Shown piece after piece: positions 24,175 to 41,391 of a stretch of 64,000 nucleotides of DNA (its first letter is position 1; each line of letters starts with the position of its first letter). The notes beneath the pieces were generated by a model, which ran no database searches, was not told the DNA's origin, and saw only the letters and a program-made list of their open reading frames with translations. Source of the DNA: an uncultured Actinomycetes bacterium (GTDB taxonomy: Bacteria > Actinomycetota > Acidimicrobiia > Acidimicrobiales > RAAP-2); the NCBI GenBank assembly GCA_903825305.1, contig CAIKAC010000012.1, positions 186,001 through 250,000 on the forward strand, in the 5' to 3' direction. Both the position numbers and the translations under genes were made by a program.

Positions 24175-24226
24175 CGCTTCTCGGGCAGTGAACCACGAGG
24201 GCAATGTTCTCTGCCATGATCGAAGC

Positions 24227-25588
24227 ATGACAACTTTTGATGTACTCAACCCCGCCACCGCGGCAACCATTACGTCCGTCAAGCATTCGACGGTTGCCGA
24301 GACCGATGCCGCGATTGACGCTGCAGCTAAGGCCTTTGAAACCTGGCGTCACGTCGCCCCGGCGGATCGAGCTCGCCTGCTCCGTCGTTTTGCCGACCTC
24401 GTGGATCAGCACCTTGAAGAACTTGCCCAGATTGAAGTTGCGAACGCGGGCCACACCATCGGCAACGCCCGCTGGGAAGCCGGCAACGTACGTGACGTAC
24501 TTGAGTACTACGCGGCCGCCCCCGAGCGAAACTTGGGCAAGCAAATCCCTGTCGCGGGTGGTCTCGACATCACCTTCAATGAACCACTCGGTGTCGTTGG
24601 CATCATTGTGCCGTGGAACTTCCCCATGCCCATTGCGGGGTGGGGCTTCGCTCCCGCGCTGGCGGCTGGCAACACGGTGGTGCTCAAGCCTGCAGAGATC
24701 ACGCCGCTCTCGGCGATTCGCTTGGGAGAGCTCGCACTCGAAGCGGGAATTCCTGCCGGGGTATTTACGGTCATTACGGGATCGGGCTCTGAAGTTGGAT
24801 GGCGCTTTGTGACCAATGAAAAGGTTGCCAAGGTTTGTTTCACTGGTTCTACCCGAGTGGGCAAAATGATCATGGCGGGGGCAGCCGAACAGGTCAAGCG
24901 CATCACCTTGGAACTCGGCGGCAAGAGCGCCAACATTGTCTTCGCGGACTCCGACCTCGAGCTCGCGGCCGCACGCGCGCCCTATGGTGTGTTCGACAAT
25001 GCCGGTCAAGACTGCTGTGCGAGAAGCCGCATTCTTGTGGAACGAAGTGCCTACGACCGTTTCTTGGAAATGCTCGAGCCGGCAGTCAAAGGCGTCAAGG
25101 TGGGGGATCCCAATCTCGAAGAGACCGAGATGGGACCGCTCGTTTCAGCCCAACAACTCAGCGTGGTGAGCTCCTTTGTGCCCGAAGGTGCTCCGGTGGC
25201 GTTTCAGGGAACCGCTCCGAGTGGTCCTGGTTTCTGGTTTCCTCCCACGGTCTTGACCCCTGCGAGTGCATCTGATCGCGCAGTGGTGGAAGAGATCTTC
25301 GGGCCAGTCGTCGTGGTGCTTCCCTTTGACGATGAAGCTGATGCCATTCGAATTGCCAATGACACGGCCTATGGCTTGTCGGGATCGATCTGGACCAACA
25401 ACGTAGGCAAAGCCATCCGCGTTGCGCGTGGGGTCGAGGCGGGCAACTTGAGCGTGAACTCACACTCATCGGTTCGCTACAACACGCCCTTCGGCGGATT
25501 CAAGCAGTCGGGCATTGGCCGTGAGCTTGGTCCCGATGCCTTGCTCAGCTTCAGCGACGTGAAGAACGTCTTCATCGCGACGGAGTAA
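24227..25588 (+). CDS. NAD(P)-dependent aldehyde dehydrogenase
   Basis: 453 residues from the ATG at 24227; a GTG at 24188 is in frame but overlaps the region just after the terminator. Family motifs: VPWNFPMPI, the cofactor loop FTGSTRVGK, the general-base glutamate in LELGGKSANIVF, the catalytic cysteine in NAGQDCCARSR and the end PFGGFKQSGIGRE. Closest in feel to betaine-aldehyde or gamma-aminobutyraldehyde dehydrogenases, but substrate cannot be read by eye. It is followed by the 760-base region with the structured RNA. Confidence 0.9.
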   Translation: MTTFDVLNPATAATITSVKHSTVAETDAAIDAAAKAFETWRHVAPADRARLLRRFADLVDQHLEELAQIEVANAGHTIGNARWEAGNVRDVLEYYAAAPERNLGKQIPVAGGLDITFNEPLGVVGIIVPWNFPMPIAGWGFAPALAAGNTVVLKPAEITPLSAIRLGELALEAGIPAGVFTVITGSGSEVGWRFVTNEKVAKVCFTGSTRVGKMIMAGAAEQVKRITLELGGKSANIVFADSDLELAAARAPYGVFDNAGQDCCARSRILVERSAYDRFLEMLEPAVKGVKVGDPNLEETEMGPLVSAQQLSVVSSFVPEGAPVAFQGTAPSGPGFWFPPTVLTPASASDRAVVEEIFGPVVVVLPFDDEADAIRIANDTAYGLSGSIWTNNVGKAIRVARGVEAGNLSVNSHSSVRYNTPFGGFKQSGIGRELGPDALLSFSDVKNVFIATE

Positions 25589-25711
25589 GCCTGCGTTCTC
25601 GGCTGTGGGTAACTACCCTCAGTCCTGTGGGAAGTGCTGTGGGCAGTGTGGTGTTCGCAGTGGAATACCACTAGAAGGCCGTGGAATTCATGAGGATTTC
25701 GTGAATTTGCG

Positions 25712-25740
25712 TTGACCATGTCATTGCTATGGCGCAGAAT
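25712..25740 (+). promoter_or_regulatory. Predicted sigma70-type promoter of the structured RNA
   Basis: -35 box TTGACC (25712-25717), exactly 17 bases of spacer, and -10 box CAGAAT (25735-25740). A start at about 25746-25748 would place the first repeat module some 15 bases into the transcript. Confidence 0.6.
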
Positions 25741-25760
25741 GCATGCCAGCAAGTAGTGCG

Positions 25761-25845
25761 ATCCACCGATCGATTACTCGTGAGGGCAACCTACCGGGTA
25801 ATGACTGGCGCAGGGGGCGAGTGGCAACACACGTTGGAGTGTCAG
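25761..25845 (+). repeat. RNA module repeat unit 1
   Basis: Begins ATCCACCG. Hairpin A: ATTACTC (25773-25779) with GGGTAAT (25796-25802), inner AGG/CCT, loop GCAA. Hairpin B: CTGGCGC (25805-25811) with GTGTCAG (25839-25845), inner GCGAGTG/CACACGT around GCAA (25824-25827). Most diverged of the three copies in primary sequence but the same fold. Confidence 0.65.
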
Positions 25846-25908
25846 GGGAGAGCTGCTCGTCAAGGGCGGCTACCTGAACGGCGAGGACTGCGAGCGATGA
25901 GGTGATGT

Positions 25909-26007
25909 AATCCACCGAACACGTGGTGCAGAAGATTCTGGGCAACCAGGGGAGGCCGCAGCAGGTGATCTGTGTTGGGGGCGTGTGGCAACACACGCTG
26001 GAGCACA
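25909..26007 (+). repeat. RNA module repeat unit 2
   Basis: Begins AATCCACCGAACACGTGG, nearly identical to unit 3 for the first 60 bases. Hairpin A: CTGG-GCAA-CCAG (25938-25949) inside TGCAG/CCGCA, which has one A-C mismatch. Hairpin B: GCGTGTG-GCAA-CACACGC (25981-25998) inside TGTGT/GCACA (25971-25975, 26003-26007). Confidence 0.75.
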
Positions 26008-26072
26008 AATGGGACTACAGGTTGGAAGGACCTGTGGGCTTAGAAGGTAAAGATCATCTCGGGCGGAGGAGG

Positions 26073-26173
26073 AATCCACCGAACACGTGGTGCAGAGGAT
26101 TCTGGGCAACCAGGGGAGGCTGCAGCAGGTGACCTTGCTAGGGGGTGCTTGGCAACAGGCGCTGGAGGCGAGG
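26073..26173 (+). repeat. RNA module repeat unit 3
   Basis: Starts 164 bases after unit 2 (unit 1 to 2 is 149). Hairpin A: CTGG-GCAA-CCAG (26102-26113) inside TGCAG/CTGCA (26091-26095, 26120-26124). Hairpin B: GTGCTTG-GCAA-CAGGCGC (26145-26162) inside CCTTGC/GCGAGG (26133-26138, 26168-26173); the changes relative to unit 2 preserve pairing. Confidence 0.75.
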
Positions 26174-26289
26174 AGTGGCGCTGGCGCGAAAGGGCCAGCG
26201 ACACAGAGGAAACATGCTCTCGCCAAACCCGTTGAGAGAGCGGAGGCAAGCTGCCCGACACAGCGAGCCAGGGCCCATCTCAGAACGGA

Positions 26290-26351
26290 CGGCCCCGAGA
26301 GGCAGGAGGCAATCGCTTCTGGTCACTCGGGGCCGACCCGTACCGGGTTTA
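26290..26351. terminator. Terminal hairpins of the structured RNA, also serving the convergent gene
   Basis: CGGCCCCGAG (26290-26299) pairs perfectly with CTCGGGGCCG (26326-26335), extended inward by CAGGAG/CTTCTG. A second small hairpin ACCCG-TAC-CGGGT (26336-26348) is followed by TTTA. The stop codon of the minus-strand gene lies in the last bases, so the structure may end transcription from both sides. Confidence 0.55.
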
Positions 26352-27221
26352 GGGCAGGGTCGCGAAACAGCTTGCTGGGCGCAGCCCCGAGCGAATCAAC
26401 TTGTTGATTTCCTCTTGGACGATCACAAGGTCGCCAGGGTGGGTGACGCCAACGCAGCGTGATTCAGTCGCGAGAACGCGAACGTCACGCAGTGCCTCGT
26501 CGGTGAGCTTGAATTTGCCTTCGATCATGTCCTCAACCGCTACCGGCAACAGCACTTCAGACTCTTCGCTCGCTGATGTCGCGAGGGACATGGCTTGGTT
26601 GAGGACCCCCCACATAGCCGGGGCAAAGCCCCAAAGGTTCATGGAAACGAGCCCATCTGCTTCGAGGAAACGTGGCTCGAGGCCATCATCACTTATGAAC
26701 TCCTCACCGCGATGGGTCACGTTTCTACGCTCGGTGATGGAGACCAGGTGCTCACCGTCGACCACGCATACCCCACGCGTAACGGGGTCATTTCCCACCA
26801 GCGCCCCCGAGAGGTGGAAGCCAATGAGGGCATTACTGGCATGAGTCCCAAGATGGTCGGCCAAGAGACGCATCGCTTCATAGCCATAGAGGTCATCAGC
26901 ATTCGATACGGCAAAGGGTGCCGTTGGCTCCACGAAGTCTTGGGCGCACAAAACGGCATGAACGGTACCGAGGGCTTGATCTTGGGTGGCAAAACTGACG
27001 TGAAGATTGCTCGGCCAGGTCGCGGCAACGTGCGCTCGAATTTCAGGTCCCGTCTCATTGTTGATGACGAGCACGAGATGATCAAAGCCGGCCGCAATCG
27101 CATCGGACGCGATGAGATCGATGACTGCTTCGTTGTTGGGGCCAATGGGTGCTAGCGGCTTCACCGCGCCAAAGCGACGGGCACGGCCGGCGGCCAGGAT
27201 GACCAGGGCAGGTCCACTCAC
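26349..27221 (-). CDS. Nucleotidyltransferase (sugar-phosphate NTP-transferase-like)
   Basis: 290 residues. The N-terminal LVILAAGRARRFGAVKPLAPIG is a recognisable NTP-transferase signature (LAAGxGxRxxxxKPL), followed by a divalent-metal aspartate pair in NADDLYG and a later FHLSGALVGND segment. It probably joins a nucleotide to a sugar phosphate or similar acceptor; the acceptor is unknown. I start it at the GTG at 27221, which overlaps the FabH stop (GTGA) and has an AGGTGG site six bases before it; the frame opens further upstream to 27251. Confidence 0.78.
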   Translation of the reverse strand: MSGPALVILAAGRARRFGAVKPLAPIGPNNEAVIDLIASDAIAAGFDHLVLVINNETGPEIRAHVAATWPSNLHVSFATQDQALGTVHAVLCAQDFVEPTAPFAVSNADDLYGYEAMRLLADHLGTHASNALIGFHLSGALVGNDPVTRGVCVVDGEHLVSITERRNVTHRGEEFISDDGLEPRFLEADGLVSMNLWGFAPAMWGVLNQAMSLATSASEESEVLLPVAVEDMIEGKFKLTDEALRDVRVLATESRCVGVTHPGDLVIVQEEINKLIRSGLRPASCFATLP

Positions 27222-28144
27222 GGATTCCACCTCAAGATGGCGCTGGCCCATGTCATGCCGGCGCCAAAGCCCGTCAGTAGCACCAAATCTCCCGCTTGGA
27301 GGCGGCCCTCAGTAATCGCGTCAACCAAGGCGAGGGGAATGGAAGCTGCAGAGGTATTGCCATATTTGTCCACCGTCACCATGGCCTTTGCTTCATCGAT
27401 GCCCAGCCGCTGACAGGCTGCTTGGATGATGCGAAGGTTGGCCTGGTGAGGCACCATGAGCGCAAGGTCATCGACGCCGATGCCGGCCTTGACCATGGCT
27501 TCACTTGCAGACTCAACAATGACTTGGACAGCCTTTCGGAACACTTCTTTCCCCACCATTTGGAGGTAGCCACCATGCTCCGCATAGAGCAGGTGCTTGA
27601 GATCTCCATCGGAGCCAAGGACTGAACTCAACAGATCGCCAGGACCATCCGTGGCTTCGAGCACCACGGCACCAGCCCCATCACCGAATAACACGGCGGT
27701 GGAACGATCGGAAAAGTCGGTAATGGTAGAGAGTTGCTCGGCGCCAATCAGTACGATGCGCTTCATGCCCGTGGCCAAGAGACCGTTGGCCACCACCATG
27801 CCGTAGGCGAAGCCCGAGCACGCCGCATTGAGGTCGAGGGCCCCGCCCGTGACCCCGAGAGCCGCCTGAATGACGACTGCAGTCGAGGGAACTATTTGAT
27901 CTGATGTGGTCGTGGCAAGTAGCACCATGTCAATATCTGAACCAGTGAGACCAGCAACCTCAAGGGCGCGTTGCGCGGCTTGCGTGCCGAGACTGGCAAC
28001 TGATCCGCCGATGTAGCGCTGGCGGATGCCGGTGCGTTCGGTAATCCAATCGTCTGACGTGTCAAGCGTCTGGGCGAGATCGTCATTCGTAACGAGCTTT
28101 TCGCCGAGGGCTTTTCCCCATCCGATGACGCGCATCCCGGTCAC
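27218..28144 (-). CDS. fabH: 3-oxoacyl-ACP synthase III (KAS III)
   Basis: 308 residues of the FabH family, which condenses an acyl-CoA starter with malonyl-ACP. The catalytic triad is visible: Cys109 in LNAACSGFAYG, His in VPHQANLRII and Asn in KYGNTSAASIP. The N-terminal TSDDWITERTGIRQRYI is a strong FabH signature. It overlaps the nucleotidyltransferase by four bases. It is not next to other fab genes, so it might serve a dedicated acyl chain rather than the housekeeping pathway; that is conjecture. Confidence 0.9.
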   Translation of the reverse strand: MTGMRVIGWGKALGEKLVTNDDLAQTLDTSDDWITERTGIRQRYIGGSVASLGTQAAQRALEVAGLTGSDIDMVLLATTTSDQIVPSTAVVIQAALGVTGGALDLNAACSGFAYGMVVANGLLATGMKRIVLIGAEQLSTITDFSDRSTAVLFGDGAGAVVLEATDGPGDLLSSVLGSDGDLKHLLYAEHGGYLQMVGKEVFRKAVQVIVESASEAMVKAGIGVDDLALMVPHQANLRIIQAACQRLGIDEAKAMVTVDKYGNTSAASIPLALVDAITEGRLQAGDLVLLTGFGAGMTWASAILRWNP

Positions 28145-41179: not shown

Positions 41180-41391
41180 GCGCTGGTGGGCGTGATACGG
41201 TCAATATTGAACACAGCTCACAGGGGAAGCCGGTCAAAACCCGGCACTGGTCCGCAACCGTGGGTGGCGAATAATCGCCACGAGTCGGGATACCTGAGAG
41301 GTGGCAGAAATCCTGCAACGTCGAGACACGTGGGCGGGCCTGGCTTGGCCTTGCATGGCTATTCCTGGTCCATTCACACCAGGAGTAATTC
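41180..41391 (+). promoter_or_regulatory. Cobalamin riboswitch with a translational expression platform
   Basis: The B12 aptamer core is plain: CACAGGGGAAGCCGGTC, CCGGCACTGGTCCGCAACCG, then GAGTCGGGATACCTGA at 41282-41297. Downstream, TCCTGGT (41363-41369) pairs with ACCAGGA (41378-41384), burying the ribosome-binding site AGGAG (41381-41385) that lies six bases before the ATG at 41392. So the switch most likely acts on translation: B12 bound, hairpin formed, uptake operon off. The aptamer's exact ends are approximate. Confidence 0.93.

Follow-up and report, generated by a model that had tools for sequence, protein, structure and literature searches.

The window (the whole stretch of DNA analysed, 64,000 nt) carries a candidate RNA gene of about 590 nt on the plus strand (25747-26336), lying between an aldehyde dehydrogenase (ALDH) gene upstream (24188-25588, plus strand) and a convergent nucleotidyltransferase (NTP transferase) gene (26349-27251, minus strand). 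The ends of the RNA gene are placed from its promoter and its 3' hairpin: a sigma-70-type promoter on the plus strand (25712-25740), made of TTGACC at 25712-25717, a 17-nt spacer and CAGAAT at 25735-25740, would set the start of transcription near 25747. The sequence-only reading had placed tandem hairpin modules at 25761-26173; the modules are there, but the feature reaches further, from about 25747 to 26336. A homologue with 74% identity and the same neighbouring genes is present in a genome of the same genus (G001), and conservation between the two runs from the upstream region through the promoter (TTGACC-17-CACAAT at the corresponding place in G001) to the terminal hairpin at 26289-26336. 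No Pfam family is matched by the open reading frames that cross the region, and any such frame is interrupted by 1-2-nt indels between the window and G001. The folding energy of the whole region is low compared with shuffled sequence (z = -7.3). Moreover, RNAalifold predicts 177 pairs for the window RNA and its G001 homologue, 26 of them with double changes and none broken, a double-change count that is biased upward since the program picks pairs fitting both sequences.

Repeated hairpin modules of the window RNA

Three modules occupy the 5' half of the RNA, all on the plus strand: module 1 at 25762-25846 (hairpin A1 at 25773-25802, hairpin B1 at 25805-25845), module 2 at 25909-26008 (GCAA loops of hairpins A2 and B2 at 25942-25945 and 25988-25991) and module 3 at 26073-26173 (GCAA loops of hairpins A3 and B3 at 26106-26109 and 26152-26155). 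A 95-nt unit at 25909-26003 reappears at 26073-26167 with 87% identity and a spacing of 164 nt, and the core of hairpin B occurs three times in the window, at 25813, 25977 and 26141, with a spacing of exactly 164 nt. What the first module has in common with the others is limited to hairpin B and the leader GATCCACCG; hairpin A is shorter there and has an unrelated stem, so that the array consists of two full copies and a partial one. The three GCAA-hairpin modules initially described are thus present, except that the first is partial and differs in its hairpin A; the stem pairings quoted for them were all found in the sequence. Two further plus-strand hairpins lie between the modules, one at 25851-25871, in which pairing is kept against G001 through one double change and three single ones, and one at 26015-26037, which carries the conserved AGGTTGGAAGGACCT. 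The last module is followed by a predicted hairpin, GTGGCGCTGGCGCGAAAGGGCCAGCGACAC (26175-26210, plus strand), which may be a counterpart of P4 in the compact form described below.

Hairpin B gives the clearest view of pairing within the locus. Over three copies in two species (window and G001), 97.6% of cells are paired and 9 of 14 pairs show changes on both sides. Its covariation score of 0.90 was reached by none of 500 shuffles (0.39 in shuffles), and pairing is destroyed when the strands are slid against each other. All six copies keep the internal loop (AGGGG or TGGGG facing TGGA), whose constancy was first noticed in the window.

A 3' domain common to the bacterial family

Two hairpins on the plus strand follow the modules. 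P5 (26245-26269) contains CCGACA at 26255-26260 and has CCGAC as its loop; the terminal hairpin P6 (26289-26336), GGCCCCGAG-A-GGC...GGTC-A-CTCGGGGCC, is found in all members aligned and is probably a transcription terminator. The link to other genera was found by blastn prior to any model: a 44-nt match at P6 to two genomes from genus g21 (E about 1e-4), located at what proved to be the 3' end of a compact RNA some 245-260 nt long. Trained on four sequences, a first model of the 3' domain (R1) then detected this domain in 107 of 172 genomes from the bacterial family (E up to 0.1), and a model built from 48 sequences (R2) in 151 of the 172, covering 21 of 21 genera (E up to 0.001). Among high-quality genomes (at least 90% complete, at most 5% contaminated), 91 of 101 are positive, mostly with one copy each. 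The 3' domain of the window scores 58.7 bits against R2 (E 8.9e-10), the window being among the 48 training sequences. One R1 match (L051) lacks the P5/P6 pattern, reads as coding sequence and was excluded from the alignment.

In a phylum sample of 396 genomes, matches were confined to family members and one weak match. Within the class, families other than this one also gave weak matches (L101-L105, with E from 1e-5 to 0.01). These are short RNA-like loci ending in CCCCGAG...CTCGGGG hairpins, and some of them and of the genomes G178, G295, G415 and G436 have two matches about 280-430 nt apart; it is possible that such loci are distant relatives, or that they merely share a common terminator type. 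Pattern matches in Streptomyces, Actinomadura and others were judged to be chance, those that were read resembling ABC-transporter coding sequence. All named members come from metagenome-assembled genomes recorded as Acidimicrobiaceae, Acidimicrobiales or simply actinobacteria, and bog, palsa or permafrost is the source of several. The host family apparently lies within the Acidimicrobiales and would have no cultured member. A search of the literature on non-coding RNAs of Acidimicrobiia and Acidimicrobiales returned nothing relevant.

In the 48 aligned members, 9 of the 11 pairs of the P5 stem have changed on both sides and CCGACA is identical in all 48, an invariance that is due in part to selection of the members, because they were gathered by patterns requiring CCGACA; stem covariation is unaffected by this requirement. 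The 3' domain alone shows double changes in 14 of 25 pairs (48 sequences), and the P2-P3 part of the compact RNAs, taken separately, in 15 of 18. In the compact form (consensus of 30 members, about 245 nt), a stem P1 encloses P2, P3 and P4 and is followed by P5 and then P6, P2 and P3 corresponding to hairpins A and B and both being GNRA-capped. Double changes occur in 38 of the 69 consensus pairs, with 96.3% of cells paired (n=30); pairing drops below 50% after strand sliding, and 0 of 500 shuffles matched the consensus in any of the five measures, a comparison in which related sequences can somewhat exceed shuffles even without any structure. Conserved G.U pairs support the plus strand as the RNA strand, since they would be C.A mismatches on the opposite one (for example, G-U in 30 of 30 members at columns 219-242). 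The earlier claim of selection on RNA structure is therefore borne out both by hairpin B in the window and by stems that covary in independent homologues.

The window RNA shares with the rest of the family P5, P6 and the promoter, and with genus g6 also the locus, where an ALDH (76% identical) and an NTP transferase (49% identical) flank a much shorter RNA (L047). The predicted RNAs, from promoter to P6, are about 200 to 410 nt long elsewhere and about 590 nt in the window. The three-module 5' half is confirmed in the window's genus only, and other genera have GNRA hairpins of their own in this part. RNAs of genus g1 have four to six GNRA hairpins, where mononucleotide shuffles have about 0.4. 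Hairpins A and B of the compact P2-P3 part were used for a further model (R3), and it gave no significant match to the window modules, which for this reason are not claimed as copies of the compact module. Given this variation of the 5' half among genera, the compact P2/P3 part is not taken as family-defining either. The tandem modules were thus rightly recognised as structured RNA, but the unit that defines the class is another one: sequence comparison supports a family defined by its 3' domain with P5 and P6, by its promoter and partly by the locus, the repeated hairpins being a lineage-specific part of the RNA.

Upstream boxes and tandem copies

The region preceding the promoter is also conserved. 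DnaA-box-like sites lie on the plus strand at 25604-25646 (TGTGGGTAA at 25604, TGTGGGAAG at 25626 and TGTGGGCAG at 25638), are conserved in G001, and are followed by weaker GTGGAATA/GTGGAATT sites on the same strand near 25661 and 25682. A GGATTTC element (25694-25700, plus strand) upstream of the -35 box is kept in G001, and many members of the family have GGATTT/TGATTTC-like elements ahead of their promoter. An alignment of 44 members anchored on the RNA start shows GTGGAWAA-type boxes near -141 and -88, and TGGGYAAAA at -68; boxes occur in places at -119 too, and the spacings come close to whole numbers of helical turns. The density of GTGGAWAA in the upstream region is about 90 times that in the complete loci. 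The base preceding the -141 box is T in 24 of 25 cases, giving TGTGGAWAA, and that preceding the -88 box is mostly G. The relaxed DnaA box is TTWTCCACA, of which TGTGGAWAA is the complement, and we hypothesise from these motifs that DnaA may control synthesis of the RNA. Moreover, most of the genera examined have TTGACC and a GCACACT-like -10 box at the equivalent position, the -10 box of compact members reading CACAGT. This promoter, conserved across genera, and the fixed positions of the upstream boxes support the view that the RNA gene would form its own transcription unit.

Some genomes carry the RNA in tandem copies. In G134 (L071), the copies are identical at 326 of 333 positions over the RNA and about 100 nt upstream, and P5 holds six of the seven differences, five of which swap the loop from CCGAC to CCUGU and the closing pair from U-A to C-G, leaving the hairpin intact. 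The same CCGAC/CCUGU swap occurs in G120 (L017) among 21 differences between copies, and in G115 (L072) and G132 (L073) one copy has yet another P5 loop, UCCG being among these loops. Over the compared stretch, the copies of these four loci are 87-98% identical. That near-identical copies differ mainly in the P5 loop points to a specific contact made by P5, and suggests that the loop may recognise a target, although altered loops could also mark decaying duplicates. Inspection of the RNA by eye revealed no GUCGG sequence with which the P5 loop could pair. In four other genomes (G127, G130, G124 and G141; L070, L013, L014 and L069), the tandem copies show no difference over the compared stretch of about 245 nt, nor in the 150 nt preceding it; the duplication may be recent, the copies may have been homogenised or, in some cases, the assembly may be responsible.

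Possible function and comparison with known RNAs

Rfam 15 gave no gathering-score match in the window region and none credible up to E=5, a minus-strand match to mir-486 (E=1.2) being attributed to chance; 28 further loci had no match either, and a scan of ten relatives gave nothing credible up to E=0.5. The covariance models of GOLLD, ROOL and OLE likewise found nothing in the window region or relatives. Elsewhere in the window, a cobalamin riboswitch was identified at 41224-41294 (33.5 bits against an Rfam gathering score of 31.5). The initial impression that no described RNA class has this layout has thus withstood the Rfam scan, GOLLD, ROOL, HEARO and OLE included, and that the locus belongs to a structured RNA family outside Rfam is in our view nearly certain.

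As to function, we tentatively propose a scaffold RNA that acts in trans and uses P5 as its recognition element, a statement that as a whole we find quite plausible without leaning firmly towards it. A chromosomal non-coding RNA would be transcribed from its own promoter and act in trans. The hairpin body and P6 would serve as a scaffold, probably bound by a conserved and purely conjectural partner, and the P5 loop would pair with another RNA or be read by a protein. Additional modules might add binding sites or rigidity, and the DnaA-box-like sites upstream may tie RNA synthesis to growth or replication. A broader version, in which a conserved scaffold carries swapped P5 loops, with copies having different targets, and is elaborated by GNRA modules lineage-wide, is possible but somewhat doubtful.

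The RNA could instead be a regulator binding RNA polymerase, of the 6S/Ms1 type, either diverged beyond recognition or evolved separately. Like Ms1/6S, it has a separate gene with a sigma-70-type promoter, measures a few hundred nucleotides and is widespread, here nearly universal, in its own lineage; moreover, 6S RNA (RF00013) has no match in six family genomes, and there is a precedent for such divergence in Streptomyces, where Ms1 is so divergent that it was located via its gene neighbourhood (PMC9130861). However, Ms1/6S is a long hairpin with a central bubble (PMC4191392), whereas the new RNA is a multi-hairpin domain closed by P1 and followed by the separate hairpins P5 and P6, without an Rfam match in the window region, RF00013 included. 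In addition, Ms1 adjoins a HAD hydrolase gene (PMC4191392, PMC9130861), and none was present among the neighbours examined (the nearest genes at some of the loci). We consider such a regulator unlikely.

Somewhat less credit is given to an "ornate" RNA comparable to GOLLD, ROOL or OLE, in which, by analogy, arrays of GNRA-capped hairpins would dock between molecules to form homo-oligomers. The constant internal loops and the excess of GNRA hairpins in genus g1 would fit it, as would a conserved 3' region combined with a variable 5' region, known from GOLLD (PMC12286853). But GOLLD and ROOL are phage or prophage RNAs, and no genuine match to the new RNA was obtained in phage records, plasmids or viral contigs (the latter searched with an exact pattern), the single viral pattern match (L035) lying in unrelated sequence that lacks the remainder of the RNA. 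The compact members, of only about 245 nt, and the lack of an Rfam match to these three classes also speak against it, and it appears improbable.

A cis-acting role towards the convergent NTP transferase gene, whether as a leader or by antitermination or antisense control, is suggested by the position of P6, which ends about 13 nt short of the end of that gene, and by the recurrence of this arrangement in several genera. The predicted RNA does not overlap the gene, however, and neighbours vary by genus (ALDH and NTP transferase, an ECF sigma factor, cation efflux, others), which argues against a common cis target, favours action in trans and makes this role very improbable. Finally, a DNA element such as a replication or segregation site, to which the phased DnaA-box-like sites and the inverted repeats might belong, is scarcely credible in view of the strand-specific G.U pairs, the GNRA loops, the conserved promoter, the terminator-like hairpin and the location of the boxes outside the structured part of the RNA gene.

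The trans-acting scaffold that we propose lends itself to direct study: the compact form is of a size that suits probing and mutation, and the tandem copies with different loops, together with the series from compact to three-module RNAs, make the function of loop and modules directly testable. Its presence in about nine of ten good family genomes makes the RNA likely to be important there, yet no known class matches it. With RNase P RNA, SRP RNA and tmRNA it has in common that it is near-universal, structured and encoded by its own gene; it was rejected as any of the three, as RNase P RNA (RF00010) is found elsewhere in the window's genome (G000:C8, 246 bits), and so are the SRP RNA and tmRNA genes. 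On a side note, the tmRNA model gives nothing but tRNA-like matches in G142 (best E 5e-12), in which this genome differs from the five others tested; its tmRNA would be missing, permuted or unassembled. OLE, ROOL, HEARO, raiA and other Rfam RNAs are likewise elaborate bacterial RNAs, with no credible model match to the new one. GOLLD resembles it as a large structured bacterial RNA with the same plan of conserved 3' and variable 5' parts (PMC12286853); in contrast to that phage or prophage RNA, the new RNA is chromosomal and shorter and has other hairpins. Structured bacterial RNAs in general are already known, and the novelty lies at the level of the RNA family.
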